From: Phycisphaerae bacterium
Lineage (GTDB): Bacteria; Planctomycetota; Phycisphaerae; Sedimentisphaerales; Anaerobacaceae
Length of the DNA: 59,771 nt
NCBI GenBank assembly: GCA_012744475.1
Contig: JAAYBV010000037.1
Span: 1-59,771 of the forward strand
Direction of reading: 5' to 3'
Each line of letters begins with the position of its first letter. The stretch's first letter is position 1. Positions 234 to 18,460 of the stretch are shown piece after piece. The position numbers and the translations under genes were made by a program. The notes beneath the pieces were generated by a model. The model made no database searches and had not been told where the DNA came from. It was given only the letters and a program-made list of their open reading frames with translations.

Positions 234-1043
234 ATGCTGGGCGCCATCGCGGGCGACATCGCGGGATCGGCCTACGAGAGCAGGCCGACCAAACGCAAGG
301 ACATACCGCTGTTCGGGCCGCTGGCGACCTTTACCGACGACACGGTTCTGACGGTGGCGGTCGCGGATGCGCTTCTGGGCGAGTGCAACTACGAGCATGC
401 CCTGCGAACCTATACCCGCCGGCATCCCTTGCGCGGGTACGGCGGCCATTTCCTCCAATGGGCGGCGGCGTCGCGCATGCGGCCATACAATAGCTTCGGC
501 AACGGCTCGGCGATGCGCGTCAGTCCGGTGGCATATGCCTTCGATTCAGAGGATGACGTGCTGCGCGAGGCGGCCAGGACGGCCGACTGCACGCACAACC
601 ATCCCGAGGGGATCAAAGGGGCCCAGGCGACGGCATTGGCGGTGTTTCTCGCTCGCAAAAGCGAGAACAAGGAGTCGATCCGCAGGCATGTCAGCGAGCG
701 TTTCGGCTACGACCTTTCTCGAACCGTCGACGAGATTCGGCCCGGCTACGCGTTCGACGTGACCTGTCAGGGCTCGGTGCCGGAAGCGATCATCGCCTTC
801 CTGGACTCTTGCTCCTACGAGGATGCCGTACGCAACGCGATCTCGCTGGGCGGCGACAGCGACACCCAGGCCTGTATCGCCGGGGCCATCGCTGAGGCGC
901 ACTATCGCGACATCCCCGCCGAGTTCCTCCGACAGATTCGCACGCAACTGACCGAAGACCTCTGGGACACGACCCTGCGATTCTACAGGCGCTGCGGCAT
1001 CCCAGCGATCCTCGAACGCATTCAGACACTGGACTCGGCGTAG
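234..1043 (+). CDS. ADP-ribosylglycohydrolase family protein
   Basis: A 269-residue protein of the ADP-ribosylglycohydrolase (DraG/ARH) superfamily, which removes ADP-ribose from proteins or small molecules using a dinuclear metal centre. Visible family signatures are GDIAGSAYE near the N-terminus (residues 7-15), the metal-binding TDDT (34-37), GNGSAMR in the middle, and the C-terminal metal motif GGDSDT (206-211) followed by an alanine-rich helix. Length is typical for the cytosolic bacterial family. The ATG at 234 follows a GGGAG stretch. No ADP-ribosyltransferase lies nearby, so the substrate cannot be inferred from context. Family assignment is firm; whether it acts on proteins, nucleic acid or ADP-ribosyl metabolites is unknown. 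Confidence 0.88.
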   Translation: MLGAIAGDIAGSAYESRPTKRKDIPLFGPLATFTDDTVLTVAVADALLGECNYEHALRTYTRRHPLRGYGGHFLQWAAASRMRPYNSFGNGSAMRVSPVAYAFDSEDDVLREAARTADCTHNHPEGIKGAQATALAVFLARKSENKESIRRHVSERFGYDLSRTVDEIRPGYAFDVTCQGSVPEAIIAFLDSCSYEDAVRNAISLGGDSDTQACIAGAIAEAHYRDIPAEFLRQIRTQLTEDLWDTTLRFYRRCGIPAILERIQTLDSA

Positions 1044-1066
1044 CTTCCTGAGTCAGGGCTTTTCGA

Positions 1067-1095
1067 TTGATAATCCGCGCCGATCAAGGTATCAC
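1067..1095 (+). promoter_or_regulatory. Candidate sigma70 promoter for the FAD oxidoreductase operon
   Basis: TTGATA (1067-1072), a 17-base spacer, then TATCAC (1090-1095), about 65 bases before the ATG at 1160. It lies just after the stop of the glycohydrolase gene. Confidence 0.45.
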
Positions 1096-1159
1096 AGGGC
1101 CATGAGCTGGCACTTGGCCGCTCCAACCTCGATCCATTTCAGCGTAGAGGAGAGCCTTC

Positions 1160-2527
1160 ATGGACAAGCATATGAATCGACGCGAATGCCTCAGGGCGCT
1201 CGGGCTGTCAGGACTGACGGCGGGACTCGGATTGACCGGCGCGCCGGCGTCTCACGCTCAAGGCGTTGGGGAATCGAGCGGGTTCCAGAGTTCGGTCATC
1301 GACGCTCACAAGGTCCAGGACATGCGCACGGCCGCGACGATCGTCGACGGCAAGGTGATCCAGCCACAGCGAGAGTTGCCGATCCTCCACCAAACCGACG
1401 TGCTTGTGGTAGGAGGCGGCTCTGCCGGCGTCGTGGCTGCCATCGCCGCCAGGCGAGCCGGCGCCAGCGTCACGCTGGTTGAGCGTTACGGCCACTTCGG
1501 AGGGCTCTGGACCGGCGGGCTTGTCGTGCTGATCATCGGGCACATCGTCAAAGGCGGAAAGCAGGTCTGCCAAGGCATCGGCGAAGAGATGATGCGGCGG
1601 CTGGACAAGCTCGACGGCGCGATCATCGACCGGCGTCCCGGCGTCAGTCCCACCGTCGACGCCGAGGCCGCCAAATACATGATGGTCGAGATGATCGAAG
1701 AGGCAGGCGTCGACGTATTCCTTCACTGCTGGGGCGTCGACGCCATCGTCACCGAGAACACCGTGCGCGGCGTCGTCTTCGAGAGCAAATCGGGCCGGCA
1801 GGCCATCCTGGCCAAGATCGTGGTCGACGCCACCGGTGACGGTGACCTGTTCGCCGCGGCCGGGGCCGAATTCGAGCATCGTTCGCACAACGTCGGTCTC
1901 GTCTCGCGGATCGGCAACCTCGACCGGGTCGATGCCGAGAAGGCCGGGCAGGCTCCGAAACCACGGCGCCTCGGGTCGGCCACTCCTGTGCCGGGCGTCA
2001 ACTGGGTCAATCTGACCGGGCCGGAGGTGGATGGGCTCGATATCGCGACCCTGACGCAAATGGAGATGAATCACCGCAAGTTTATCTGGAACAACGTCCA
2101 GAGAACCCGCCAGACGCCCGGATACGAGAAGGTCTATCTGGTCGAGACCGCACCGCAGCTCGGTGTACGTATCACTCGCATCCTCAACGGCCTGAACCGC
2201 GTGAGGCTGTCGGACCTGAGAGAGGCGACGAAGTTCCCCGACGTGGTCGGCGTGGGCGGTTCCTCGGGAGCTACCCACGGCGAATGGCAGATTCCCTACG
2301 GGGCTCTGGTCCCCACGAAGGTGGACAACGTGTTGGCGGCCGGTCGCTGCATCAGCGTCGACATGGGCATGGCCGACCTGGTGCGTCTGGTGCCCAACTG
2401 CTTCGTCACCGGTCACGCCGCAGGCGTTGCGGCCGCGGTGGCCGTGAGGGACAATTGCCGGCCCCGCGACGTGGACATCGCGAAGGTCCAGAAGGTCCTC
2501 CGGCAGCAGGAGGCCTATCTCGGGTGA
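1160..2527 (+). CDS. FAD-dependent oxidoreductase with Tat-like signal
   Basis: A 455-residue FAD-dependent oxidoreductase of the FAD_oxidored type (PF12831-like). The N-terminus has a twin arginine (NRREC, residues 6-10), a hydrophobic stretch rich in Gly and Leu, and an Ala-Ser-His-Ala end near residue 33, which together look like a Tat signal, so the folded flavoprotein is probably exported. The dinucleotide-binding fold follows with GGGSAG (85-90) and an acidic end of strand 2 (VER, near 107-109). The C-terminal region has the AAGRC and GHAAGVAAA segments common to these enzymes. The ATG at 1160 is preceded by an AGGAG box. Its stop overlaps the start of the next gene, a membrane polyferredoxin, so the two probably form one redox unit. 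The substrate is unknown. Confidence 0.8.
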   Translation: MDKHMNRRECLRALGLSGLTAGLGLTGAPASHAQGVGESSGFQSSVIDAHKVQDMRTAATIVDGKVIQPQRELPILHQTDVLVVGGGSAGVVAAIAARRAGASVTLVERYGHFGGLWTGGLVVLIIGHIVKGGKQVCQGIGEEMMRRLDKLDGAIIDRRPGVSPTVDAEAAKYMMVEMIEEAGVDVFLHCWGVDAIVTENTVRGVVFESKSGRQAILAKIVVDATGDGDLFAAAGAEFEHRSHNVGLVSRIGNLDRVDAEKAGQAPKPRRLGSATPVPGVNWVNLTGPEVDGLDIATLTQMEMNHRKFIWNNVQRTRQTPGYEKVYLVETAPQLGVRITRILNGLNRVRLSDLREATKFPDVVGVGGSSGATHGEWQIPYGALVPTKVDNVLAAGRCISVDMGMADLVRLVPNCFVTGHAAGVAAAVAVRDNCRPRDVDIAKVQKVLRQQEAYLG

Positions 2528-3765
2528 ACAACCCCTTAGAGCCCAACAGCGAGTCGGGTAGAACAGAGGCCGCAAGACGCCGCCGCATCCGATGGCTCGT
2601 CCGCGTTTCGTCCCTGGTTGTCGCTATCGTCCTGCTCCTGGCGGCCAGGCAGACGCGATGGCCGGTGCTGGTCCCAGCGTTGAGTCCCTTTGTCGCTGCG
2701 GGCTCGATCCTGGCGACGCGGGCGTTTGCTGTCACGGCGTGTCTGGGATTGGCGGTGGGCTTGATCGCGATGCTGCGGCCGCGCTGCTTCTGCCGATGGG
2801 TTTGTCCCCTGGGCCTGTGCGCCGATGGCATGAGCTACGTGGGCCGGCGCTGCGGCCGAAAGCCTGCAAAGCTACCCTCGATCGGCCGATGGATCGTGTT
2901 GCTGACCCTGGCGAGCGCCTGTCTGGGCTATCCTCTGCTGCTGTGCTTGGACCCGCTGACGATGTTCTCCGGGGCATTTGGGATCGCAGAATCGCGGACA
3001 GGCTGGCTGACAGCCCTGCCCCTGTTGCTGGTTCTGACGACGAGTTTCGTATGGCCGCACATCTGGTGCAGCCGAATCTGCCCCTTAGGGGCATTTCAGG
3101 ACATGCTCGCCTATCCGCTGCGACGCGCCCGCCAGGCCAGGAATCAAGCCGGCGGCAATCGCTCATCGTCGCGATGGAATCCACCGCTGGCCAGACGGAC
3201 GGTCCTTGGCGTGGCCGCCGGCGCCGCTCTGGCCGGAATTGCCCGGTCCAGCCAAGGCTCCACGCCACGGCCACTTCGTCCGCCCGGCGCGATCGACGAG
3301 CCGGAGTTTCTCGGCGTCTGCGTTCGCTGCGGCAACTGCGCCCGGGCATGCCCTACCCACATCATTGAGCCGTCTCTCGGCCGTCACGGACCGGCAGGTC
3401 TTCTGACGCCCATCCTCCACTTCGAAGAGAGTTACTGCCTGGTCGATTGCACAAAATGCACGCAGGTGTGCCCCAGCGGCGCGCTGGTGCGGCTGTCTCC
3501 CGATGGCAAAGCCAGCAGACCGATCGGGCTGCCACAGGTGGACATGAGTGTGTGCCTGCTGGCAGAGAGCCGCGAGTGCACGGAATGCGGCAGGTGGTGT
3601 CCGCACGCCGCGATTCGCTATGTGTGGTCCGAAACCGAATACACTCTGACCCCGGAAATCGACGCTCAGAAATGCACAGGTTGCGGCGCATGCGAGGCGG
3701 CTTGTCCCACGAAGCCAAACAAAGCCATTGTCGTTGTGGCCTTCGAGAACGCGGCCAGCGGATAA
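2524..3765 (+). CDS. Membrane polyferredoxin, NapH-NapG-like fusion
   Basis: A 413-residue iron-sulfur protein starting at GTG 2524, whose GTGA overlaps the preceding stop, so translation is probably coupled. The first half resembles NapH/MauN/FixG: about four membrane segments (roughly 26-42, 52-84, 122-142, 162-180) with two cysteine motifs, CFCRWVCPLG (88-97) and CSRICPLG (182-189). A second twin-arginine-like stretch, ARRTVLGV followed by a hydrophobic run (223-240), sits between the halves. The C-terminal half is ferredoxin-like: CVRCGNCARACP (266-277), CLVDCTKCTQVCP, CTECGRWCP and CTGCGACEAACP (384-395), room for about four 4Fe-4S clusters. It looks like fused NapH and NapG. It probably moves electrons between the membrane quinone pool and the exported FAD partner; direction is unknown. 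Confidence 0.8.
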   Translation: MNNPLEPNSESGRTEAARRRRIRWLVRVSSLVVAIVLLLAARQTRWPVLVPALSPFVAAGSILATRAFAVTACLGLAVGLIAMLRPRCFCRWVCPLGLCADGMSYVGRRCGRKPAKLPSIGRWIVLLTLASACLGYPLLLCLDPLTMFSGAFGIAESRTGWLTALPLLLVLTTSFVWPHIWCSRICPLGAFQDMLAYPLRRARQARNQAGGNRSSSRWNPPLARRTVLGVAAGAALAGIARSSQGSTPRPLRPPGAIDEPEFLGVCVRCGNCARACPTHIIEPSLGRHGPAGLLTPILHFEESYCLVDCTKCTQVCPSGALVRLSPDGKASRPIGLPQVDMSVCLLAESRECTECGRWCPHAAIRYVWSETEYTLTPEIDAQKCTGCGACEAACPTKPNKAIVVVAFENAASG

Positions 3766-3781
3766 GCTTCCGCCATTGACG

Positions 3782-6007
3782 TTACTTGTGCCTTTTCTTC
3801 TTCGCCTGGAGCTTTCGGGTGGGCTTGCGGGCATTGCGGCGAGACTTGCGGTCCGATCCGCCCCGTGACTTGCCTCGGCCCTCGCCCAGAGGGCTGACGG
3901 GCGCAAGGCTCAACTGGCGTCCGGGAACGTTGACCGAGACGATGCGGACGTGCATGGGCTGGCCCAGATGGACCTCATGGCCGCTGCGCTCGCCGACGAC
4001 GCACTGAGCGGCCTTGTTCAGCAGCCACTTGTCAGGCCCGAGGTCTTCGAACTTGATGAGACCCTCGATTCCGAATTTCCGCGACTGAACGAACAGGCCA
4101 AACCCGGCCAGTCCCGTCACGACACAATCCAGCTCTTCCCCGATTCGCTTGCTGAGCATTTGCAAGGTCAGCACGGCAACCAGGTCGCGCTCGGCGTCTT
4201 CGGCCCGCTGCTCGGTAAAGGTGATGTGCTTGCCCACCGCCGCAAGGTCCTGACCGGCAGCCACCTGCTTGGCGATGTCAATCCGATCCTGGAGGTGGAA
4301 CTGCAACTGGCGATGCACCAGCAGGTCCGCATAGCGGCGGATCGGGCTGGTGAAATGGCAGTAGTGCGTCGATGCCAACGCGTAGTGACCGATGTGCAGC
4401 GGCGCGTACTGGGCCTTCTCAAAACTCCTGAGCACGATCAAGTTGACCGCCAGCGCGCGTTCGGCGTCCTTGACGGAATCCAGCAGGTCCTGGATCGCCC
4501 TGCGGTCCGGATTGCGGGGCATCGGGAACCCCATCGTTCGCAGCAGTTTGGAGAGATTCCTGATGCTCAGCGCATCGGGCTCCGGGTGGATGCGGCGCAT
4601 GAACGGCACATCCAGGCGGTCGAGCAGTGACGCGACGGCGTCGTTGGCCTCGACCATGAACATCTCGATGATCGTGTGCGGATAGCTGTTGTCGGCGGGA
4701 TGGGCGTCCACGACCTGGCCCGACTCGTCAAAGTCCAGCTCGGGCTCGGGCAGGTCGAGATGAAGCATGCCATTGTCCGCCCGGCGTTTCTCGATCCACC
4801 GGGCGAGCGCCTCCATTGTGCCGAGCAACTTGATGACCTCGGGCTTGGCGCCTTTGGTGTGGCCCTTGAGAATCCGGTCGGCCAGTTCGTAGGTCAGCCG
4901 GGCCTTGGAACGGATGATACTGTTGGCGAAGCGGCGATGCAGAATCTTCCCTGCGTCATCGTACGTAATGTAGACGCTCTTGGCGAATCGCGGCTGGTCC
5001 GGCTGGAGGCTGCAAATACCGTTGCTGAGGACTTCCGGCAGCATGGGAATCGTCTTGCCCGGCAGGTAGACGCTGTTGCCTCGAAGGCGGGCCTCCTCAT
5101 CCAGCGGCGAGCCGGCCGGGATAAAGTGGCTGACGTCGGCGATGTGCACGCCGAGCACCCAGTTGCCGTCGGCGTCGCTGTCCAGGCTGATCGCGTCGTC
5201 GAAGTCCTTGGCATCCGGCGGATCGATCGTGACGATCATCTTGTCGCTGATGTCCTCTCGCTCGGCGCCCGGTTCGGCGCCGAAGGCCGCGGCGGCGCTG
5301 CGCGCCTGTTCCAGGCACTCCTCATCGAATGCTCCCGGCAGATGGAACTGCCGCAGAACCGCTTGGATTTCCGTCTCGTACCGCCCGGCGCGGCCGAGCA
5401 CCTCGACGATCACACCCCGCGCCAAGTATTGCTCATTCGGATACGACAGGATCTCGACGACAACCTTGTCTTTCTCCTTGGCGTTCTTGGCCGCGACGTC
5501 TTCGACGACAATAGGCTCGATAAACCTGCTCCCATCCGGCTGAACGATCCACGCCTCCGGATGCCTGGTCAGGGTCCCGACGAACTGATTGTCGGCGCGT
5601 TCGAGCACCTCGATGATCTCACCCGTATACCGGGTCTCGCGTCCCCGCACGCCTTTGCGCGTCGCCTTGGCAAGGACGGTGTCGCCGGTCATGGCGTCGC
5701 CTGTGCTGTCGGGGGGGATGAACAGATCGCCGTGCGCGTTCGCTTCGAGCGGCACGACGAAGCCGAAACCTTTGGCGTTCTTGCGGAAGGTGCCGACAAT
5801 CTGGCCGGCCATGCTGGGCAGTGTCACAAGGTTGCCGCCTCCGATGACCACGTGCCCGGCGCGGCGCAGCTCTTCGAAGGCCGCCTTGAATTCCGAATAG
5901 GCGTCCGACTCCACGCCCAGCGCTTTGGCCAACTGCGCCACCTTCACAGGGGTGTAATCGGCATGCTGGAGCAGCTTGACAATCCGGTCTCGATACACGT
6001 TCGGCAT
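3782..6007 (-). CDS. rnr: Ribonuclease R
   Basis: An RNase II/RNase R family 3'-to-5' exoribonuclease of 741 residues that degrades structured RNA and works in rRNA and mRNA turnover. Visible features are an N-terminal winged-helix-like segment, cold-shock/OB domains, the RNB catalytic core with IDPPDAKDFDDAISLD (the aspartates bind catalytic metal), the HYALASTHYCHFTSPIRRYADL segment region, a C-terminal S1 domain (GFGLFVQS), and a lysine/arginine-rich tail typical of RNase R. A longer reading frame begins at a GTG at 6031, but that codon lies inside a strong hairpin, so the ATG at 6007 with GGAGTGG upstream is preferred. It follows rpsT on the same strand. Confidence 0.93.
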   Translation of the reverse strand: MPNVYRDRIVKLLQHADYTPVKVAQLAKALGVESDAYSEFKAAFEELRRAGHVVIGGGNLVTLPSMAGQIVGTFRKNAKGFGFVVPLEANAHGDLFIPPDSTGDAMTGDTVLAKATRKGVRGRETRYTGEIIEVLERADNQFVGTLTRHPEAWIVQPDGSRFIEPIVVEDVAAKNAKEKDKVVVEILSYPNEQYLARGVIVEVLGRAGRYETEIQAVLRQFHLPGAFDEECLEQARSAAAAFGAEPGAEREDISDKMIVTIDPPDAKDFDDAISLDSDADGNWVLGVHIADVSHFIPAGSPLDEEARLRGNSVYLPGKTIPMLPEVLSNGICSLQPDQPRFAKSVYITYDDAGKILHRRFANSIIRSKARLTYELADRILKGHTKGAKPEVIKLLGTMEALARWIEKRRADNGMLHLDLPEPELDFDESGQVVDAHPADNSYPHTIIEMFMVEANDAVASLLDRLDVPFMRRIHPEPDALSIRNLSKLLRTMGFPMPRNPDRRAIQDLLDSVKDAERALAVNLIVLRSFEKAQYAPLHIGHYALASTHYCHFTSPIRRYADLLVHRQLQFHLQDRIDIAKQVAAGQDLAAVGKHITFTEQRAEDAERDLVAVLTLQMLSKRIGEELDCVVTGLAGFGLFVQSRKFGIEGLIKFEDLGPDKWLLNKAAQCVVGERSGHEVHLGQPMHVRIVSVNVPGRQLSLAPVSPLGEGRGKSRGGSDRKSRRNARKPTRKLQAKKKRHK

Positions 6008-6025
6008 AGGCCACTCCAATGAAAG

Positions 6026-6061
6026 CAGCACCCAACCGACTGTGTCATCGATTGGGTGCTG
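6026..6061 (-). terminator. Hairpin between rpsT and rnr
   Basis: A perfect 10-base-pair stem (6026-6035 with 6052-6061, core AGCACCCAA/TTGGGTGCT) and a 16-base loop. It follows the rpsT stop and precedes rnr. On the minus strand it is followed by GCTTTCATTGG, only weakly T-rich, so it may attenuate transcription or set an mRNA end instead of acting as a full terminator. Confidence 0.55.
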
Positions 6062-6131
6062 GCGTTTTCCTGCCGCGCCATTCTATTCGCAGGCCACCTG
6101 GCCAGCCGTCGGGCCGGCCGCAACGCTCCGG

Positions 6132-6413
6132 CTAACTGGTCTGCTGTTTAGCTTTCAGCGCGTTGAGCCTCTTGGCCAGCCGGGATTTCTTTCTCGCAGC
6201 GGTCTTCTTGTGCATCGTGCTGGTGGAGGCCACCTTGTCGAGCTTCTTGACCGTCGCCCGGAATTCCGCTGTCGCCTGTTCGACGTTGCCCTCGCTCAAA
6301 GCGGTTTCGAGACGCTTGACCTGCGTCTTGACCTGGCTCCTGCGAGCCCGGTTGATCGTTCGTTTCTTGGTGTTCTGCCTGACTCTCTTCTTCGCTGATA
6401 ACGAATGTGCCAC
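6132..6413 (-). CDS. rpsT: 30S ribosomal protein S20
   Basis: A 93-residue basic, helical protein matching bacterial S20, which binds 16S rRNA in the body of the small subunit early in assembly. It begins MAHSLSAKKRVRQ and has the conserved HKKTAARKKSRLAKRLN segment near the C-terminus. The start is a GTG at 6413, six bases after a clear AGGAG. It lies 39 bases after the TPR gene and before rnr, all on the minus strand. S20 often starts with a non-ATG codon, linked to autoregulation in Escherichia coli; whether that applies here is unknown. Confidence 0.95.
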   Translation of the reverse strand: MAHSLSAKKRVRQNTKKRTINRARRSQVKTQVKRLETALSEGNVEQATAEFRATVKKLDKVASTSTMHKKTAARKKSRLAKRLNALKAKQQTS

Positions 6414-6452
6414 GTTGTTCTCCTGGTCGTTCCCAAAACGCTACTGCAAAAC

Positions 6453-8603
6453 TCACTGAGAGGTTGGTTCCCTGAATCCGGCATCGCCGCCCGGGCCGTC
6501 GGGCCCGGTCGATTTCAGCTCGGCCCGAAGCCGATCCACCCGCTCGCTGACATCCTTGTACCCGAAATCGAGCTGGGCGATCCTCCGATACAACTCCAGC
6601 GCCCGGTCCCGGTCACCCTGCGACTCGTGCGCCAGGGCAAGATTATACCGCAATTCTTTGGCGATTGCATCATCTTTTATTTCGTAGGAATCGATGGCGC
6701 GGGAAAAAACATCGATGGCGTCGGCGTACCAGCCCTTCATGAAGAAGCAGTAGCCGATCTTGTCCATGGCGGAGATCCGGCGGCGCGGGTCCTTCTGGGC
6801 GTCCTGGAACAGCGGAATGGCCTCATTGTAGTTCTCGTTCCGCATCAGCCGCAGCCCGTATTCGTATTTGGCGGACAGGTCTGTGGGGTAGTGCTCCACG
6901 CAAAGCCGGTAATGCTCCAGCTCCGTGCGGGCGAGGACCTCGGTCAGTTCCCTGACGCCGGCCTGGGCCGCAGCATCGGACGGTTCGGCCTTTAGCCGCT
7001 TCTTGGCGGCCCGGAGCCTGCGCCGGCCCTGGCGGATGCGGAGGAGGCCCGCCCGCTCGGCAAACCGAAAGTCCTTATGGCTCTCGGCCGCGTCGCTGAG
7101 CAACTGGATCGCCTCGTCTTCGGCGTCATCCTGCTCCAAATCCGCCAAGGCATCGGCCAGATTGAAGGCATTCTGGGCCACGTCCGGGTCCTTGGCGTAG
7201 GCCCGCCGGGCCTCCTCGACGGCGCTGAGCCGGTAGTCCTCTGTCTTGATCATCCGGTCCTGGGCGTACAGTCTGGCCTGTGTCTCGCGGTCCCGGATCG
7301 ACTGGCGGAAGTCGCCCTCGACGCCGTACTTGCCTTTGGACATCGTCAATTCGGCCGAGAGGTTCTTGAACTCGTCGGCCAGCTCCTTGTCGTCGGGCTT
7401 CATCCGCACGGCCCGCTGACAGGCCGCCACCGCCTTGTCGTACTGCCCCATCGCCTTGTAGCAGTCCTTCAAAAGGACATAGGTTTGCAGGGAGGGTTTC
7501 TCAATGGCGTTGTTGGTCTGGAAGATCAGATTGGCAATCCAGTGCGCCGTGCGGTGGTATCCGCCGTCGACCGCCGCCTTGAGCATGGCTTCGGCATAGG
7601 GGGTGTGGTCGGGGTCCTTCGCGAAGAGATACTCGGCGTTGAGCATCTGTTCGAGCGGAGTCCTGCCGCGCAGATGCTTGACCCGCTCGACCATGGAAGG
7701 CTTCTTGCCGCCCCGCCCTCGCCGCTGAAGCCCCAGCTCGCACAGGGGCAGGTGTCCCTCTTCGAGCGCGTCGGGAGCTCGCTGAAGGCCTTCGAGGTAC
7801 ATCTCGATCGCGTAGTCGTAGTTCTTGCTCTCCGCGGCACTGCGCGCCTTCTCAAAGAACGCCCTGGCGGCGGCCAGGTCACCCTGGTCCGACGGGGCGG
7901 CCGGGACAGACTCCTCCTGTTCTGCTCCCGCCGGATCCTGAGCCTGAGGCGGGCGCGCCGCATTGACGCGAGTCCGCTGGGGTCGCGCCTTGGCGGCGCC
8001 TGAGACGGCGACGGGCGTTCCGGTACCGGCGCGTCTGGCAGCCCCAAGCTTGCCGGCCAGGCGTTTGAGGTCTTCCGCCAGCATGAGATCGTCAGGCTTG
8101 AGCCGTGCGGCACGCTGGCAGGCGGCCACGGCGCGCTCGATCTGCCCGATCGCCTCGTAGGAATCCTTCAGCAGGATGTAGACAGCCGCCGAGGGTCTGC
8201 GGGCATTGTTGTTGGCCAGGAACATCAGGTCCGCCATCCACTTGACCGTTTCGGTGTATCGACCCGCAACGGCGGCGCGTAGCACCGCTTCTCCGTAGGC
8301 CAGATGCTGAGGGTCCTTGGCGAGAAGGTACTCGGCGTTGAGCATCTTCTCCAGCGGCGTGTCACCCTCGGAGAGCTTCTGCTCGACCTCCTCGGCCGAT
8401 GGCCTGGCCCCGCCCCGCTCGTCGCGCCGCAGGGCCAGGACACGAAGATCTATGTGGCCGCCCTCGACCGTGTCGGGACTGTGTCGCAATCCCGCCAGAT
8501 ACGCATCGATGGCCCGGTCGAAATCGCCCGCCTCAAAAGCCTGGCGAGCTCGTTCGAAGTGGGCCTCGGCCTGCGCTTGTGCTTGAGCATCCGGTTCGGG
8601 CAT
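6453..8603 (-). CDS. Tetratricopeptide repeat protein with internal duplication
   Basis: A 716-residue TPR-type scaffold protein with no catalytic motif, signal peptide or membrane segment. About 178 residues occur twice: residues 13-190 and 246-422 align at an offset of about 233 and share MLNAEYL, AKDP, LLKD, AVAACQRA and KPDD. An alanine/proline/glutamine-rich linker (about 191-245) separates them. The C-terminal part (about 430-700) carries more TPR units ending in a conserved-looking GYCFFMKGWYADAIDVFSRA region. It is the first gene of a minus-strand run leading to rpsT and rnr, hinting at a link to ribosome or RNA metabolism, though simple adjacency is possible. The ATG at 8603 has only a distant GAGGTG upstream. 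No function can be named. Confidence 0.82.
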   Translation of the reverse strand: MPEPDAQAQAQAEAHFERARQAFEAGDFDRAIDAYLAGLRHSPDTVEGGHIDLRVLALRRDERGGARPSAEEVEQKLSEGDTPLEKMLNAEYLLAKDPQHLAYGEAVLRAAVAGRYTETVKWMADLMFLANNNARRPSAAVYILLKDSYEAIGQIERAVAACQRAARLKPDDLMLAEDLKRLAGKLGAARRAGTGTPVAVSGAAKARPQRTRVNAARPPQAQDPAGAEQEESVPAAPSDQGDLAAARAFFEKARSAAESKNYDYAIEMYLEGLQRAPDALEEGHLPLCELGLQRRGRGGKKPSMVERVKHLRGRTPLEQMLNAEYLFAKDPDHTPYAEAMLKAAVDGGYHRTAHWIANLIFQTNNAIEKPSLQTYVLLKDCYKAMGQYDKAVAACQRAVRMKPDDKELADEFKNLSAELTMSKGKYGVEGDFRQSIRDRETQARLYAQDRMIKTEDYRLSAVEEARRAYAKDPDVAQNAFNLADALADLEQDDAEDEAIQLLSDAAESHKDFRFAERAGLLRIRQGRRRLRAAKKRLKAEPSDAAAQAGVRELTEVLARTELEHYRLCVEHYPTDLSAKYEYGLRLMRNENYNEAIPLFQDAQKDPRRRISAMDKIGYCFFMKGWYADAIDVFSRAIDSYEIKDDAIAKELRYNLALAHESQGDRDRALELYRRIAQLDFGYKDVSERVDRLRAELKSTGPDGPGGDAGFREPTSQ

Positions 8604-8646
8604 AGCGGCAAGTGGATTATCACCTCACATGGTATACAACTAACCA

Positions 8647-8674
8647 ACTGTAGTATTCGACCTGATTTTGTCAA
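8647..8674 (-). promoter_or_regulatory. Promoter for the TPR gene
   Basis: On the minus strand TTGACA (8674-8669), a 16-base spacer and TACAGT (8652-8647), giving a leader of about 35-40 bases before the ATG at 8603. It is back to back with the glyA promoter. Confidence 0.5.
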
Positions 8675-8685
8675 CGAATAAATGC

Positions 8686-8714
8686 TTGCGTCTGCCATAC
8701 CCCCGCGTTATAAG
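8686..8714 (+). promoter_or_regulatory. Promoter for glyA
   Basis: TTGCGT (8686-8691), a 17-base spacer and TATAAG (8709-8714), about 75 bases upstream of the glyA ATG. The -35 box is only half-consensus. No riboswitch structure was recognised in the leader. Confidence 0.5.
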
Positions 8715-8789
8715 AATTCGTTCGCCGGTTATCTGACCTTGCGGGGTTGCAGCCGCCACGATGGACACGTCATTTAGGAAGAAGCAGGT

Positions 8790-10061
8790 ATGCAAACGGC
8801 TCTGGAGCAGTACGACCCTCAGATCTACGAGCTGATTCGGCAGGAAGAGGCCCGACAGAGCGGCTCGATTCGGCTGATCCCCTCGGAGAACTATGTCTCG
8901 CGCGCCGTAATGATGGCCAGCGCGAGCTGTCTGACGAACAAGTACGCCGAAGGCTATCCCGGCAAACGCTACTACGAAGGGCAGCAGGTCACGGATCTGA
9001 TTGAGAAACTGGCCCAGGACCGGGCCAAGGCGCTGTTCAAAGCCGATCACGCCAACGTCCAGCCCTACTCGGGCTCGGTGGCGAACCTGGCCGCTTACGC
9101 GGCGCTGATCGAGCCGGGTGACACAATCATGGGCATGTCTCTGTCCCACGGTGGACACCTGACCCACGGCTGGAAGGTCTCTCTGACGAGCAAGTTCTAC
9201 AATTCCGTCCCCTACTACGTGAACACCGAGACCGGTCTGCTCGACTACGACGCCATTCGCGACCTCGCCAAGAAGCACCGTCCGAAGATCATCATCTCCG
9301 GGGCCACCGCCTATCCGAGAATCATCGATTTCGACCTCTTCGGCCAGATCGCCAAAGAGGTCGGAGCGTTCCTTGTCAGCGACATCGCCCATATCGCGGG
9401 CCTGGTGGTCGCGGGCATCCACAAGAGCCCCGTGCCGTACGCGGACATCGTCTCGACGACAACTCACAAGACCCTGCGCGGTCCGCGCGGGGGCCTGCTG
9501 TTGTGCAAGGCCGAACACGCCGCCAAGGTGGACAAGGCGGTCTTCCCCGGCCTCCAGGGCGGTCCGCACATGCATACGCTGACCGCGATCGCCGTGGCTA
9601 TGGCCGAGGCCAACACGCCGGAATTCGTCGCCTATGCCACGCAGGTCGCCAGGAACGCCAAGGCGATGGCGAATAAGCTGCTCGAATATGGCTTCAAGCT
9701 GGTCACCGGAGGGACCGATAACCACCTGATCCTCATCGATCTGCGGAACAAGGAGATCCCGGGCAAGAAGCTGGCCAAGGCCCTGGACCGGGCGCGGATC
9801 GTCAGCAACTACAATACCGTCCCGGGCGACCCGGCCCCGCCGTTCAACCCCAGCGGCCTGAGGATCGGAACCCCGGCAATCACCACGCGGGGGATGAAAG
9901 AGCCGGAGGCCGAACAGATCGCGACGTTCATTCACCGGGTGGCCGAGAGCATCGACAACGAATCCGTCATCGAGCAGATCAGCAAAGAGGTCCTGTTGTT
10001 GTGCTCCCGGTTTCCGGTGCCCGAGCACTTCATCATACCGCCGAAGAACGGACATCGGTGA
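8790..10061 (+). CDS. glyA: Serine hydroxymethyltransferase
   Basis: A 423-residue PLP enzyme that converts serine and tetrahydrofolate to glycine and methylenetetrahydrofolate, the main source of one-carbon units. Family signatures include IRLIPSENYVS near the N-terminus, the NKYAEGYPGKRYYEGQQ region, the cofactor aspartate in DIAHIAGL, and the PLP-lysine motif STTTHKTLRGPRGG with the Schiff-base lysine at residue 227. Length matches the family. The start follows an AGGAAGAAGCAGGT stretch. It has its own promoter, divergent from the TPR gene; a Gfo/Idh/MocA gene follows after 133 bases. Confidence 0.96.
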   Translation: MQTALEQYDPQIYELIRQEEARQSGSIRLIPSENYVSRAVMMASASCLTNKYAEGYPGKRYYEGQQVTDLIEKLAQDRAKALFKADHANVQPYSGSVANLAAYAALIEPGDTIMGMSLSHGGHLTHGWKVSLTSKFYNSVPYYVNTETGLLDYDAIRDLAKKHRPKIIISGATAYPRIIDFDLFGQIAKEVGAFLVSDIAHIAGLVVAGIHKSPVPYADIVSTTTHKTLRGPRGGLLLCKAEHAAKVDKAVFPGLQGGPHMHTLTAIAVAMAEANTPEFVAYATQVARNAKAMANKLLEYGFKLVTGGTDNHLILIDLRNKEIPGKKLAKALDRARIVSNYNTVPGDPAPPFNPSGLRIGTPAITTRGMKEPEAEQIATFIHRVAESIDNESVIEQISKEVLLLCSRFPVPEHFIIPPKNGHR

Positions 10062-13319: not shown

Positions 13320-14693
13320 ATGGCTACCGATTCGCATGGCAGAACCACATTCTCTCGCGGAGTGCATCCTCCCGAGAGCAAGCACCTGACCGAAGACAGG
13401 CCGATCGAGCCGGGCCCAGGTGTTGCGGAGCTTTCAATCTTGCTCAGCCAGCACATCGGCGCGCCCTGCCAGGCAGCCGTCAAGAAGGGCGACCTCGTGC
13501 AGGCCGGACAGAAGATCGGCGAGTGCCAGGCGTTCGTCTGTGCACCCGTGCATGCCCCGGTGGCGGGCAAGGTCAAGGAGCTGGCGCTGCGGCCGCATCC
13601 GGTGCTCGGACGCTGTCAGGCCATTGCCATCGAGCCTCAGGAGCCCGCGTCGCCAACCCTGCCTTCGTTCAGCCTTCCCGCCGATTTCGACCCGACTCGG
13701 CACACCCCTCAGGAGATCTGCGAGGCCGTCAGGGATGCCGGCCTGGTGGGCATGGGCGGAGCAGGGTTTCCCACCAGCGTGAAGATCCAGCCGGATGCGA
13801 AGCCCCCGAAGCACACCCTGCTCGTCAACGGCTGTGAGTGCGAGCCCTATATCACTTGTGATTACCGCCTGATGCTCGAATGGACCGATCAGGTCCTGGC
13901 CGGGATTCGGCTCGCTCAGCGGGCCTGCGGTGCATCCAAGGTCTTCATCGGCGTCGAGGACAACAAACCCAAAGCCATCGACGCAGTGGGCGCGGCGATC
14001 AAGAGGGCCGGATCGGGCTCCGACATCCGCGTGGTTTCACTGCAGACCAAATACCCGCAGGGAGGTGAGCGGCAGCTCATCAACGCCGTGCTCGGCCAGA
14101 CGGTCCCGACCGGAGGCATTCCTCCCATGATCGGGGTCGTCGTGATCAACGTAGCCACCGCGGCCGCCATTGCCGATGCCGTCCTCTATCATCGGCCGCT
14201 GACTCATCGCGTCGTCACCGTCACCGGCGAAGCCATCGCCAAGGCGGGCAATTACTACGTCCCGATCGGCACGCCCGTCGAAGCATTGATCGAGTTCTGC
14301 GGAGGCGTGACCGAGAAGTCCGCCAAGGTCGTCATGGGCGGCCCGATGATGGGATTGGCCATCGCCGACCTGAACACGCCGATCACGAAGACCAGCGGGG
14401 CTGTGACCGTCCTGACCCGGCGCCAGATCGGCCAGGCCAAGTTCGAGCGGCGACAGACCGCCTGCATTCGCTGCGGCCGGTGCCTGGAGGTCTGCCCGGA
14501 GAATCTCAGTCCAACTCGCATCGCCCACGCGGTCAGGAGCAACCTCCTGGACGTTGCGCAGAGCTACTTCATCAGCGCCTGCATCGAGTGCGGCTGCTGT
14601 AGTTACGTCTGCCCCGCCAACATCGAACTGACCGGCTACATCAAGACAGGCAAAATCTTCCTGGCCCGGCAGAGAAAGAAGATGCCGGCCTGA
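13320..14693 (+). CDS. rnfC: Electron transport complex subunit RnfC
   Basis: A 457-residue subunit of the Rnf complex, which couples electron transfer between ferredoxin and NAD+ to ion pumping across the membrane. RnfC is the peripheral NADH-binding subunit. Visible features are an N-terminal RnfC barrel/hybrid region, the glycine-rich FMN/NADH part (GMGGAGFPTSVK), and two C-terminal 4Fe-4S motifs, CIRCGRCLEVCP and CIECGCCSYVCP. It is the first complex gene of a C-D-G-E-A-B operon, 18 bases after the small RseC-like gene and 43 bases before rnfD. Shine-Dalgarno support at 13320 is weak. Confidence 0.95.
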   Translation: MATDSHGRTTFSRGVHPPESKHLTEDRPIEPGPGVAELSILLSQHIGAPCQAAVKKGDLVQAGQKIGECQAFVCAPVHAPVAGKVKELALRPHPVLGRCQAIAIEPQEPASPTLPSFSLPADFDPTRHTPQEICEAVRDAGLVGMGGAGFPTSVKIQPDAKPPKHTLLVNGCECEPYITCDYRLMLEWTDQVLAGIRLAQRACGASKVFIGVEDNKPKAIDAVGAAIKRAGSGSDIRVVSLQTKYPQGGERQLINAVLGQTVPTGGIPPMIGVVVINVATAAAIADAVLYHRPLTHRVVTVTGEAIAKAGNYYVPIGTPVEALIEFCGGVTEKSAKVVMGGPMMGLAIADLNTPITKTSGAVTVLTRRQIGQAKFERRQTACIRCGRCLEVCPENLSPTRIAHAVRSNLLDVAQSYFISACIECGCCSYVCPANIELTGYIKTGKIFLARQRKKMPA

Positions 14694-14736
14694 TGGGCAT
14701 GGTGCGCCACGGCAAGGGATGACAAGGACTCGATAG

Positions 14737-15753
14737 ATGCTCAGAGATATCACGGTTTCGTTCGCACCGCACATCAGCAAGCGGCTTTCGACGCAGCGGG
14801 TCATGCTGGACGTGCTCATCGGGCTGGTCCCGTTGGTGGCGGCGGCGGGCTTCTACTTTCGGATTCGCGCCCTGCTGCTCATCGGCGTCTGCGTCCTCTG
14901 GTGTGTGGGCATCGAGTGGGTCTGCAACCTGATTCGCAGGAGGCCCAACTCGCTGTGGGACCTCAGCGCGGTCGTCACCGGCGTCATCCTGGGCCTGTCG
15001 CTTCCGCCGGCCCTGCCCTTCTGGACGGCCGCCGTCGGCTCGGTGATCGCCATCGGCGTCGGCAAGATGGCCTTCGGGGGCCTGGGCGCCAACGTCTTCA
15101 ACCCGGCCATGGTCGGCCGCGCCTTTCTGACTGCCTCGTTCGGCATTCTGATGACGACGTGGACCGTGCCGGCGTCGATCGACAGCGCCATGCCGAAGCT
15201 CTCTCCGGCCGACGCCGTGGACACGCGAACCCAGGCCACCCCGCTGGCCTGGAGCAAGACGGCCATCAAGAACCAAACCGAAGCGAAGACGTACAGCCGC
15301 CGACTGCTTCTGTCGACGATCACCGGGGAGGTGGCCGGCAGTTTGGGCGAAACCAGCGCAATTGCCGCCCTCCTGGGCGGCGCCTATCTGCTCTGGCGTC
15401 GGACTATCGGTTTCCACATCCCGGCCGCCGTGCTGCTGGCGGCGTTCGTATTCGGTGGGATCGCCTACCTGATCGACCCGGACGCCTACGTTTCGCCGTT
15501 TTACCACCTCACGAGCGGCGCCCTGCTGTTCGGAGCGTTCTTCATCGCGACAGACCCAGTGACCGCTCCGCTGACGCGCCGCGGGATGTGGCTCTTCGGC
15601 CTGGGCATCGGGACCATCACGCTGCTGATTCGCATCGTCGGCACGTATCCGGAGGGCTTCATGTTCGCGGTCCTGGTGATGAACGGCCTGACCCCTCTGA
15701 TCGACAGACTGTGCCGGCGGGTGCCGGTGGGAGGATTGCCTCGTGTTGGATAG
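14737..15753 (+). CDS. rnfD: Electron transport complex subunit RnfD
   Basis: A 338-residue integral membrane subunit with about eight to ten helices, homologous to NqrB. It normally carries a covalently bound FMN on a threonine. The expected position here reads DTRTQATPLAW, keeping the Asp and Ala-Thr core of the flavinylation motif but with Gln where Gly is common. Conserved segments NVFNPAMVGRAFL and FFIATDPVTAPL are present. It has an AAGGA box and overlaps rnfG by 11 bases. Confidence 0.95.
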   Translation: MLRDITVSFAPHISKRLSTQRVMLDVLIGLVPLVAAAGFYFRIRALLLIGVCVLWCVGIEWVCNLIRRRPNSLWDLSAVVTGVILGLSLPPALPFWTAAVGSVIAIGVGKMAFGGLGANVFNPAMVGRAFLTASFGILMTTWTVPASIDSAMPKLSPADAVDTRTQATPLAWSKTAIKNQTEAKTYSRRLLLSTITGEVAGSLGETSAIAALLGGAYLLWRRTIGFHIPAAVLLAAFVFGGIAYLIDPDAYVSPFYHLTSGALLFGAFFIATDPVTAPLTRRGMWLFGLGIGTITLLIRIVGTYPEGFMFAVLVMNGLTPLIDRLCRRVPVGGLPRVG

Positions 15754-16375
15754 CCTGAAGCACTTCGCAAGGGAAAGCTGGCTGCTGGTGGTCGCCTCTG
15801 TGCTGTGCGGGCTGCTGCTGGCCGCGACGAACGCCGCGCTGGGCCCGCGGATCGAAGTGAACAAGGCTCTGAAGCTGACCAGTCTGGCGGGCGGTCTGCT
15901 GCCCTCCGCCCAGGCTTTCGTACCTCTATCCAGCCCTGTGGAGGTCAAAGGCCTCGACGGCAAGACGGAGTCGGCAGTGGTATTCAAGGCCACAGCCGAC
16001 GACACCGTCGTAGGCTGGGTCTTCAAAGTCGTGGGGTCGGGGTTTGCCGACAAGATCGAGTTGGTCGTCGCGGCCGATGCCTCATTCAGCAAGCTTGTCG
16101 GCTACGACGTGGTCAGCAGCAGCGAAACCCCGGGGTTCGGCGACCAGATCAAGGACGCGTACTACCGCAACCAGTTCACCGGAGCGCCCGTCGGGCAACT
16201 CTCACTCGTCGGGCTTGGCGCCGCCAAAGAGCAGGACATCGACTCAACCATCGTGGCCATCAGCGGCGCGACGATCAGCAGCACCGCCGTCGTCCAGGCC
16301 ATGAACCACTACCTGCCGCAACTGAAGGACCAACTCCAGCAGAAAGGGCTGATCGGCCATGGCAACAACCCCTGA
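15743..16375 (+). CDS. rnfG: Electron transport complex subunit RnfG
   Basis: A 210-residue subunit with one N-terminal membrane helix (about 10-28) and an extracytoplasmic FMN-binding domain. The flavinylation motif SGATISS is present (SGAT at 16262-16273), so ApbE can plausibly attach FMN to its threonine. The residue usually Asp, three positions before the Ser, is Val here (codon 16253-16255). The start is a GTG inside the end of rnfD, and the gene overlaps rnfE by 17 bases, so translation is tightly coupled. Confidence 0.93.
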   Translation: MLDSLKHFARESWLLVVASVLCGLLLAATNAALGPRIEVNKALKLTSLAGGLLPSAQAFVPLSSPVEVKGLDGKTESAVVFKATADDTVVGWVFKVVGSGFADKIELVVAADASFSKLVGYDVVSSSETPGFGDQIKDAYYRNQFTGAPVGQLSLVGLGAAKEQDIDSTIVAISGATISSTAVVQAMNHYLPQLKDQLQQKGLIGHGNNP

Positions 16376-16976
16376 CGGACAGAACGTCTACGCAGAGGCC
16401 GTCGCCACGGGTCTGTGGCGCGAGATTCCGGTCTTTCGCATGCTCCTGGGCACATGCCCGACCCTGGCGGTGACCGCTGCGATCAAGCCGGCCCTGACCA
16501 TGGGGCTGTGCGTGATCTTCGTGCTCGTGTGCAGCAACATCATGGTCAGTCTGATGCGAAAGGGGTTGCGTCCGCACGTTCGCATCCTGTTGTTCACGCT
16601 GACGATCGCCACCTTCGTGACCATTGCGGACCTTTTCCTGCGGGCCTACCAGCCGGTGATGAGCGAGGCCCTGGGCCCGTACGTTCCGCTGATCATCGTC
16701 AACTGCGTGATCATCTGGCGGGCCGAGGCCCGTGCCAGCAACAGCGGCGTCCTGCTGAGCATCGTGGACGGCCTGGCCATGGGCGTGGGGTTCACCATCG
16801 CCTTGTGCGTTCTGGCCACGATCCGTGAAGTTCTCGGCACCGGCTGCCTCTTCGAGATCCCGGTCCTGCCCAAGGCCTTTCCCGCATGGGCGGCGATGGG
16901 TATGCCGGTGGGCGCGTTCCTGACGTTCGGGCTCGTGCTCGGGTTCATCAACTACGTCAGCCGGAAACGGAGCTAA
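16359..16976 (+). CDS. rnfE: Electron transport complex subunit RnfE
   Basis: A 205-residue membrane subunit with about six helices, homologous to NqrD and to RnfA. The early segment LLGTCPTLAVTAAIKPALTMG region carries the conserved cysteine that, with its RnfA counterpart, helps hold a membrane iron-sulfur cluster, and a second conserved Cys lies in VNCVIIW. It starts within the end of rnfG after AAAGGG and is 12 bases before rnfA. Confidence 0.94.
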   Translation: MATTPDGQNVYAEAVATGLWREIPVFRMLLGTCPTLAVTAAIKPALTMGLCVIFVLVCSNIMVSLMRKGLRPHVRILLFTLTIATFVTIADLFLRAYQPVMSEALGPYVPLIIVNCVIIWRAEARASNSGVLLSIVDGLAMGVGFTIALCVLATIREVLGTGCLFEIPVLPKAFPAWAAMGMPVGAFLTFGLVLGFINYVSRKRS

Positions 16977-16988
16977 GGGAGTCGCACG

Positions 16989-17576
16989 ATGGATTTGCTG
17001 TACGTTCTGCTCACGGGCTTCATCTCCGTTGTCTTGATCAACAACCTCGTGTTCACGAAGTTCCTGGGGATCTGCCCGTACATCGGAGTCTCGGGGCGAA
17101 TCGACATGGCCTTCGGCATGGGCCTGGCGGTTACGTTCGTCATGACGCTCAGCGGCACCCTCACCTGGATGATCGACCACTGGCTGCTGATGCCTCTGAA
17201 CCTGGAGGTGGCCCGGTATGTGGCCTTCATCATGGTGATCGCGGCCGCCGTGCAACTAGTCGAAATGTACCTGAAGAAGTTCTTCCCCCCCTTGTACGAG
17301 AGCTTCGGCATCTTCCTGCCTCTGATCACGACCAATTGCGCGATTCTGGGCTTGTGCCTGTTTCTCGTCGTCTGGGGCACCAGCACTCTGATTGAGGCGG
17401 TGGTTCTGAGTTTCGGCGGAGGCATAGGTTTCACCATCGCGATTTGCATCATGGCGGGGATTCGCGAGAACATGCAGATGGTCGACGTGCCCGAGTCCCT
17501 GCGTGGCGCTCCGATCACACTGATCACGGCGGGACTTCTGGCCCTGGCCTTCATGGGATTTGCGGGAATCATATGA
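16989..17576 (+). CDS. rnfA: Electron transport complex subunit RnfA
   Basis: A 195-residue six-helix membrane subunit, homologous to NqrE. It has the family segments INNLVFTKFLGICP near the N-terminus and TTNCAILG in the middle, whose cysteines match the intramembrane iron-sulfur ligands. The ATG follows AAGGGAG, and its TGA overlaps the ATG of rnfB (ATGA). Confidence 0.95.
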   Translation: MDLLYVLLTGFISVVLINNLVFTKFLGICPYIGVSGRIDMAFGMGLAVTFVMTLSGTLTWMIDHWLLMPLNLEVARYVAFIMVIAAAVQLVEMYLKKFFPPLYESFGIFLPLITTNCAILGLCLFLVVWGTSTLIEAVVLSFGGGIGFTIAICIMAGIRENMQMVDVPESLRGAPITLITAGLLALAFMGFAGII

Positions 17577-18460
17577 TCATGTTGACGGGTGTTCTGGGAG
17601 CGATAAGTGGCGTGTGGCTGGCCGGCCTGATCATGCTCGGCCTGGGCCTGGTCTTTGCGATTGTCCTGCTCGTCGCCAGCGAGAAGCTCAAGGTTCCCGT
17701 GGACCCGAGGATCACACAGGTTTACGAGGTCCTGCCTCACCTCGATTGCGGGGCCTGCGGCTATCCCGGGTGCAGCGGGTACGCCAAGGCGGTGATCGCC
17801 AATCCCGAACTGCTCGGCCAGTGCGCGCCGGGCGGGGCCGACGCCGCTAGCAGAATCGCCGCCATCCTAAACCTGCGAATCAGCGCGTCCGGACCAGCCA
17901 AGCGACCAATCGTCCACTGCCGCGCCCATACGGCGGACCGAACCTACTTCGCCCAGTATCAGGGCATTCCAAGCTGCACCGCCGCCAATGCGCTGGCCAA
18001 CGCCCAGGCGTGCAAGTTTGGGTGCCTCGGGTTCGGAGACTGCGTCCGCGCGTGCAAGTTCGATGCGCTGCACGTGATCGACGGCCTGTCTACGGTCGAC
18101 TACACCAAGTGCACCGGCTGCGGCGCCTGCTCGAAGGCCTGCCCGCGAAACCTGATCGAGATGGTCCCCTTCAGCTACGAGAACATGATGACCGTCGCGT
18201 GCCGCAGCCGGGAGAACGGCAAGAGCACGCGGGCGTTCTGCCAGGTCGGCTGCATCGGCTGCGGCCTGTGCGCCAAGCAGAGCGAGGCCTTCACCGTCGC
18301 CGACAATCTCGCCCGCATGGACTACGCGAAATACGCGCCCTGCGGCGAGAATGAGGCCGCCATGAACAAGTGCCCCACCGGCGTCATCGTCTGCCGCGGC
18401 AAAACCGCCCCACCCCCACGCGAACCCAAAGCCAAATCCGCCGAAGCAGCCAAAGGCTGA
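17573..18460 (+). CDS. rnfB: Electron transport complex subunit RnfB
   Basis: A 295-residue subunit that takes electrons from or gives them to ferredoxin. An N-terminal membrane helix (about 12-36) is followed by the Fe-S motif CGACGYPGC and a polyferredoxin part with several cysteine clusters: CKFGCLGFGDCVRAC, CTGCGACSKACP, and CQVGCIGCGLC plus later cysteines. The start is the ATG at 17573 overlapping the rnfA stop; a second in-frame ATG lies two codons later. It is last in the operon, and apbE converges on it 32 bases downstream. Confidence 0.94.
   Translation: MIMLTGVLGAISGVWLAGLIMLGLGLVFAIVLLVASEKLKVPVDPRITQVYEVLPHLDCGACGYPGCSGYAKAVIANPELLGQCAPGGADAASRIAAILNLRISASGPAKRPIVHCRAHTADRTYFAQYQGIPSCTAANALANAQACKFGCLGFGDCVRACKFDALHVIDGLSTVDYTKCTGCGACSKACPRNLIEMVPFSYENMMTVACRSRENGKSTRAFCQVGCIGCGLCAKQSEAFTVADNLARMDYAKYAPCGENEAAMNKCPTGVIVCRGKTAPPPREPKAKSAEAAKG

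Follow-up and report, generated by a model that had tools for sequence, protein, structure and literature searches.

A conserved two-gene unit of a Tat-signalled PF12831 flavoprotein and a NapH-NapG-type fusion: a candidate periplasmic redox module

Near one end of a Phycisphaerae contig, the gene for a putatively exported flavoprotein overlaps by four letters the gene for a membrane polyferredoxin, in which a NapH-type and a NapG-type half are joined in one chain (hereafter, the fusion). Do the two genes form a unit, and if so, which electron pool would it use, and in which direction? The window, that is, the whole stretch of DNA analyzed (59,771 nucleotides, nt), is an entire contig (C9) of a 5.75-Mb genome (G000) assembled in 118 contigs and 99.6% complete; its base 1 is the contig edge, and the stretch upstream of it is outside the data. 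We found that the pair is a conserved unit, and we consider it a candidate periplasmic redox module. The initial annotation had described the genes as those of an oxidoreductase dependent on flavin adenine dinucleotide (FAD) with a twin-arginine translocation (Tat) signal and of a 413-residue fusion, sharing a GTGA. This description and its coordinates hold, including the PF12831 domain, the twin arginine, and the TGA stop codon within GTGA. The features of the gene pair are as follows.

1160..2527, forward strand: Tat-signalled FAD-dependent oxidoreductase (PF12831), 455 residues, ATG start (Pfam, AlphaFold2 model, fold search)
1160..1261, forward strand: Tat-type signal peptide of the oxidoreductase, residues 1-34, with the twin arginine at residues 7-8 (1178-1183), read from the translation
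2508..2513, forward strand: AGGAGG, possible ribosome-binding site of the fusion gene, within the flavoprotein gene, ending 10 nt before the GTG
2524..2527, forward strand: GTGA start/stop overlap, the flavoprotein TGA being at 2525-2527 (read from the sequence)
2524..3765, forward strand: NapH-NapG-type fusion, a predicted five-helix membrane polyferredoxin, 413 residues, GTG start at 2524 (profiles, AlphaFold2 model)

A contig scan yielded 180 relatives of the flavoprotein, and the locus counts given here refer to the best 80 of these 180; the titles of most of the 80 describe metagenome-assembled genomes. The fusion lies directly downstream of the flavoprotein in 69 of the 80 loci, where "directly downstream" denotes a tblastn match of the window's fusion (E ≤1e-3) starting from -60 to +1300 nt of the end of the flavoprotein match; the 69 include one weak match truncated at the edge of its contig (L112, E 2e-4). 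At eight further loci the flavoprotein gene is no more than 600 nt from where the contig stops; another three have no adjoining fusion. Hence the pair is a conserved unit and not an accidental one. The initial annotation had proposed such a search and had taken homologues usually lacking the partner as a sign of accident. This is not what is seen in the subfamily, whereas among nine distinct distant PF12831 loci used as controls the fusion was found in the fetched flanks of none (L144 and L166 are one place), as expected, because the PF12831 family has many uses. Chance neighbourhood of the two genes was also considered and is ruled out by the 80-locus scan.

Whole-genome searches recovered the fusion, with E no higher than 1e-49, for four of the contig-edge loci (L069, L077, L103, and L126). 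Among 61 related genomes, the window's own included, nine have the fusion (E <1e-60) and all nine have the flavoprotein orthologue; seven carry both genes on the same contig, and in G012 and G032 both genes are at contig ends. In a tenth genome, G060, the flavoprotein is 165 nt from the contig end and no fusion match was found at 1e-20. Across the phylum, sampled with 392 genomes (own included, at most four candidates scored per genome), the flavoprotein was found in seven (1e-50), the fusion in seven (1e-40), and both in five. These sets overlap with the 80 loci (for example, at L059, L062, L077, L087, L102, L103, L109, and L137), and therefore are not independent.

The pair is found in five phyla according to the submitters' titles: Planctomycetota, Verrucomicrobiota (L111, L121, L125), Kiritimatiellota (L138), Hydrogenedentota (L128-L130, L132, L134, L135), and Acidobacteriota (L131). 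The nearest relatives of the window locus among the named ones, L059 and L137, are planctomycetes. The record L098 is titled Candidatus Nealsonbacteria, yet its flavoprotein is 79% identical to that of the window, and it may be misbinned. Since several neighbours are common within the window's genus, adjacency means little there; across the 80 loci the flanks of the pair vary, and in G036 and G031 they differ from those of the window. No third conserved partner gene was found across the 80 loci. By clustering, an upstream gene of ∼309 amino acids is common to 11 of them (L105, L108, L113, L115, L117, L122, and L123 included); of its members, L122 and L117 were scanned and matched nothing in Pfam, and several of the records carrying it have titles naming planctomycetes from rumen or gut. 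At L090:3856-5004, the gene for an aldo/keto reductase carrying a 4Fe-4S domain runs 4 nt into the flavoprotein gene that follows; this single locus may hint at the substrate.

The 4-nt overlap recurs in 29 of the 68 measured pairs, Hydrogenedentota among them; as the start codon of the fusion was picked by rule at each locus, the gap counts are approximate. The AGGAGG also codes for the conserved C-terminal QxAYLG of the flavoprotein, and its conservation may therefore serve the protein. The tree distances of 55 pairs are correlated with r 0.84 (maximum of 500 permutations, 0.22), and the flavoprotein and fusion trees have 29 of 52 splits in common. Such agreement is what mainly joint inheritance would give, if some reshuffling or error in the trees is allowed for; the correlation is support rather than proof, as common species history raises it too.

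The flavoprotein matches PF12831 (FAD_oxidored) over its full length (E 7.8e-82, 276.2 bits with the gathering cut-off of 27, profile positions 1-416 of 416). Its N-terminus, MDKHMNRRECLRALGLSGL, reads in translation as a Tat-like signal, the end of which at residue 34 is a guess from the AQ after AxA-like residues. The twin arginine is kept in all 63 rows of the flavoprotein alignment (A5), comprised of 62 of the 80 loci and the window; 15 loci were excluded because they did not give more than 430 residues free of stops, and L077, L087, and L102 were omitted by choice, their copies G012, G060, and G036 all having the twin arginine. Six arginines are invariant in the 63 rows. The AlphaFold2 model has a predicted local distance difference test (pLDDT) score of 87.4 and a predicted template modelling (pTM) score of 0.86, and its fold is that of a FAD protein, the best VIA match being 3oz2 (Z 21.5, root-mean-square deviation 4.2 over 287 residues). 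All of the 50 matches listed are FAD proteins without a clear winner, geranylgeranyl reductase-like, FixC, MnmG, Thi4, and flavocytochrome c3 kinds among them; as their Z values are all similar (18.3-21.5), we make no substrate call. The sequence search against solved structures gave mainly cofactor-domain matches. We counted seven roughly full-length PF12831 loci in the window's genome, and only the gene at 1160-2527 is beside a fusion. At L045:5774-9126 (contig C85 of the same genome), a PF12831 flavoprotein also starting with a twin-arginine signal stands beside a BNR-repeat protein, with no fusion in the 14 kb fetched.

Within the fusion, the following features were distinguished, the row counts referring to an alignment of 64 of the 68 extracted open reading frames and the window (65 rows; L059, L085, L092, and L112 were omitted, their frames being cut off by the contig ends).

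2791..2808, forward strand: first NapH-type CxxxCP motif, residues 90-95 (both cysteines in 65/65 rows)
3067..3084, forward strand: second NapH-type CxxxCP motif, residues 182-187 (first cysteine in 52/65 rows, second in 65/65)
3187..3258, forward strand: twin arginine (residues 224-225, 3193-3198) and fifth membrane helix (model helix 222-245), from the alignment and the AlphaFold2 model
3319..3708, forward strand: NapG-type domain with four 4-cysteine motifs, residues 266-395 (15 of the 16 cysteine columns in 65/65 rows, the other in 64/65)

NapH models match residues 50-195 with 57.1 bits, and the NapG model matches residues 224-410 with 89.8 bits; because both scores are far under the curated NCBIfam equivalog cut-offs (234 and 269, respectively), the protein is NapH/NapG-like and not NapH or NapG proper, and the "-like" of the initial annotation was apt. 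The NapG model and the NapH/MauN model each match all 65 rows (E up to 1e-3). The AlphaFold2 model (pLDDT 92.4, pTM 0.87) has a fifth helix at the twin arginine and four before it, the latter fitted by model helices and hydropathy, with no topology predictor used. Foldseek gave no match at E 1e-3 for the fusion. The best VIA match (Z 6.8 over 67 residues) covers only the ferredoxin part and says nothing of the membrane half, and the sequence search against solved structures returned ferredoxin-type matches. Between residues 187 and 223, the stretch with extra clusters in a longer type of fusion, no CxxC is present in any of the 65 rows. Such a longer NapH-NapG-type fusion, with extra iron-sulfur motifs between the halves, is also encoded in the window's genome (L044:5110-6849, contig C86), where it adjoins an FMN_bind-domain protein (L044:5110-8033).

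At the seam of the two halves, the twin arginine is kept in all 65 rows, at the place where the initial annotation had pointed to it. The fifth helix has a mean hydropathy of 1.56 versus 1.99-2.27 for the first four, and is the least hydrophobic one in 50 of the 65 rows; in the window, the 15 residues after it contain three lysines or arginines and no aspartate or glutamate. By analogy, a twin arginine before a weak fifth helix is the pattern of a protein whose insertion is probably begun by Sec and completed by Tat. Thus the earlier suggestion of a Tat signal turned membrane helix stands as to the pattern, but not as to its novelty, because a polyferredoxin inserted by both Sec and Tat has already been described (PMC5449189).

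As for the electron pool, the window's genome has menA (TIGR00751, 120.9 bits with the cut-off of 102.15), and no heme-copper oxidase was matched in the genome at E 1e-3, the search not extending to bd oxidase. It is therefore plausible that this organism is an anaerobe with a menaquinone pool. A quinone-free reading was considered, as PF02621 had no match in the genome at E 1e-3, but it was dropped since the menA model scores over its cut-off. The observation that no Nap-type reductase is nearby could be widened to the genome: the NapA model TIGR01706 has no match at E 1e-3 in its 5.75 Mb. A Nap system is ruled out by this result and the sub-cut-off NapG and NapH scores. The window also carries an rnf operon at 13320-18460, with its genes ordered C, D, G, E, A, B. 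Apart from rnfG, which scores 90.9 of 102 bits, every gene matches at least one NCBIfam Rnf/Rsx model over the cut-off.

From the computed domains, motifs, predicted folds, and pair conservation, we infer targeting, topology, contact of the partners, quinone, direction, and substrate as follows. The FAD enzyme would be folded with its cofactor and then exported by Tat. The fusion would be inserted by Sec with its first four helices, the two CxxxCP motifs forming a putative iron-sulfur site on the cytoplasmic side; its twin-arginine helix would then be handed to Tat, and the four-cluster ferredoxin domain would be placed in the periplasm. The predicted electron path includes menaquinone at the NapH half, the cytoplasmic-side site, the four periplasmic clusters, the FAD of the partner, and the substrate. 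In the favoured direction, menaquinol would be oxidized and the flavoenzyme would reduce an organic, perhaps anionic, substrate, amounting to a small anaerobic respiration. We lean to this direction because NapGH is described as a quinol dehydrogenase (PMC5449189) and the heme-copper oxidase search was negative. Overall, we assign a probability of roughly 55% to a self-contained periplasmic redox module, with the flavoenzyme joined to menaquinone by the fusion and quinol-driven reduction favoured.

Several observations weigh against this reading or its parts. The flavoprotein has no adjoining fusion at L063, L114, and L127; in whole-genome searches, the fusion was found elsewhere for L114 and L127 (3.2e-58 and 2.9e-69, respectively), whereas L063 gave no more than a distant match (2.5e-21). 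For the contig-edge loci L074, L087, and L124, such searches yielded no fusion at E 1e-10, and for L104 only distant ones (best 1.0e-24). As the assemblies searched genome-wide are mostly fragmented, the absence of a fusion may reflect the absence of the contig that carries it. In the 392-genome sample, G223 and G173 (39% identity) have the flavoprotein without a whole fusion, and G070 and G139 (37% identity) have the fusion without the flavoprotein; G223, a one-contig assembly, has only a NapH half beside the flavoprotein (L161:7497-9882), with no NapG-half match in the fetched stretch. Supported splits are in conflict in both trees (8 of 41 for the flavoprotein, 9 of 39 for the fusion). The second CxxxCP motif is without its first cysteine in 13 of the 65 fusion rows, and in 15 of the 65 the fifth helix is not the least hydrophobic of the five. 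The six invariant arginines only hint at an anionic substrate, and may serve FAD instead. Finally, reverse flow is a serious rival to the favoured direction.

In this rival, which has a smaller but real chance of being correct, the flavoenzyme would be a periplasmic dehydrogenase acting on a sugar-derived or organic acid and sending electrons via the fusion into menaquinone, similarly to TcuA/TcuB. TcuB provides a precedent (PMC8593673; PMC10468695), NapH-like systems serve oxidases too (PMC8238504), and the BNR-repeat protein beside the other twin-arginine PF12831 protein of the genome fits glycan breakdown. On the other hand, no catabolic gene recurs beside the pair across the 80 loci, and no oxidase of the heme-copper type (the only one searched, bd oxidase not being covered) was found that could drain the quinone pool. 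It is improbable, in our view, that the pool to which the fusion connects the flavoenzyme is cytoplasmic ferredoxin and not quinone: the rnf operon implies that low-potential ferredoxin matters in this organism, but the lack of CxxC at residues 187-223 in all rows suggests that there is little to accept ferredoxin electrons, and menA is present. That the two genes are neighbours by common ancestry only and work apart is very improbable, since the shared neighbours within the genus (where adjacency proves little), the three loci without an adjoining fusion, and the genomes in which none was found are set against a pair that persists over five phyla by title with changing flanks, often overlaps by 4 nt, and has largely agreeing trees.

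If the reading as a quinone-linked module is correct, this compact pair of genes makes a candidate periplasmic redox reaction open to testing in bacteria for which assemblies are the main source of knowledge, a role is given to one branch of PF12831, and the short Sec-Tat polyferredoxin serves as a wire that can be re-used with more than one kind of exported enzyme. All components belong to known kinds, while the pairing and the substrate seem undescribed: judging by titles and the starts of abstracts, none of the open-licence PMC papers listed connects PF12831 with a NapH-NapG fusion. Tentatively, one could go further and propose an undescribed respiratory system, in which a periplasmic PF12831 reductase would be fed by menaquinol via a one-piece NapH-NapG wire in at least five phyla, giving an organic acceptor to anaerobes lacking heme-copper oxidase and Nap, the wire being re-used with DUF362 proteins.

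Among known systems, NapGH has the same two halves by profile and cluster motifs. Unlike NapGH, the window's fusion is a single polypeptide scoring under both cut-offs, with a flavoprotein partner and no NapA-model match in the genome. The NapH-type membrane wire is shared with flavinylated NapH-like systems (PMC8238504). No FMN_bind domain was found at E 1e-3 in the pair or in the five further genes that were scanned in the stretch 234-10058, and a flavinylated system of this kind is ruled out for the flavoprotein, the fusion, and the scanned neighbours.

The flavoprotein differs from TcuA in that it matches the two TcuA equivalog models only over the FAD-binding stretch and far under their cut-offs (33.5 of 369 and 27.1 of 372.55 bits). 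TcuA is not known to be exported by Tat. As in TcuA-TcuB of Salmonella, which acts on tricarballylate, a flavoenzyme stands with an iron-sulfur membrane protein linking FADH2 to the membrane electron pool: TcuB is described as moving electrons from the FADH2 of TcuA via 4Fe-4S clusters and heme to membrane acceptors (a title cited in PMC8593673), and is termed an FADH2:quinone oxidoreductase (PMC10468695). Unlike the window's fusion, TcuB thus also uses heme.

The closest likeness to the fusion is the delta-proteobacterial NapH-NapG fusion of MLMS-1 (Q1NSB0; Tooke et al., 2017, PMC5449189), which has a twin arginine before the fifth helix and which reporter fusions in E. coli indicated to be a Tat substrate needing both Sec and Tat. 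For Sec-Tat proteins, a last helix of low hydrophobicity with positively charged residues behind it is reported (PMC5449189). Like the MLMS-1 protein, the window's fusion has NapH-type and NapG-type halves, a twin arginine directly before the fifth helix, four predicted extracytoplasmic clusters, and a weak fifth helix with positive charges behind it. Unlike the MLMS-1 protein, which has seven clusters, three of them predicted on the cytoplasmic side (PMC5449189), the window type is limited on that side to the two CxxxCP motifs; moreover, it has a flavoprotein partner, while none is named for MLMS-1 in the passages cited from that paper.

Related fusions at L158:4741-7001 and L157:503-2690 are directly behind a DUF362 protein with a twin-arginine signal, in L158 again with a GTGA overlap. 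The fusion looks modular, since wires of this kind also occur with a partner other than the flavoprotein, namely the DUF362 protein. This is in line with what has been described for NapH-like proteins, which serve both reductases and oxidases and are used as modules with varied exported oxidoreductases (PMC8238504).

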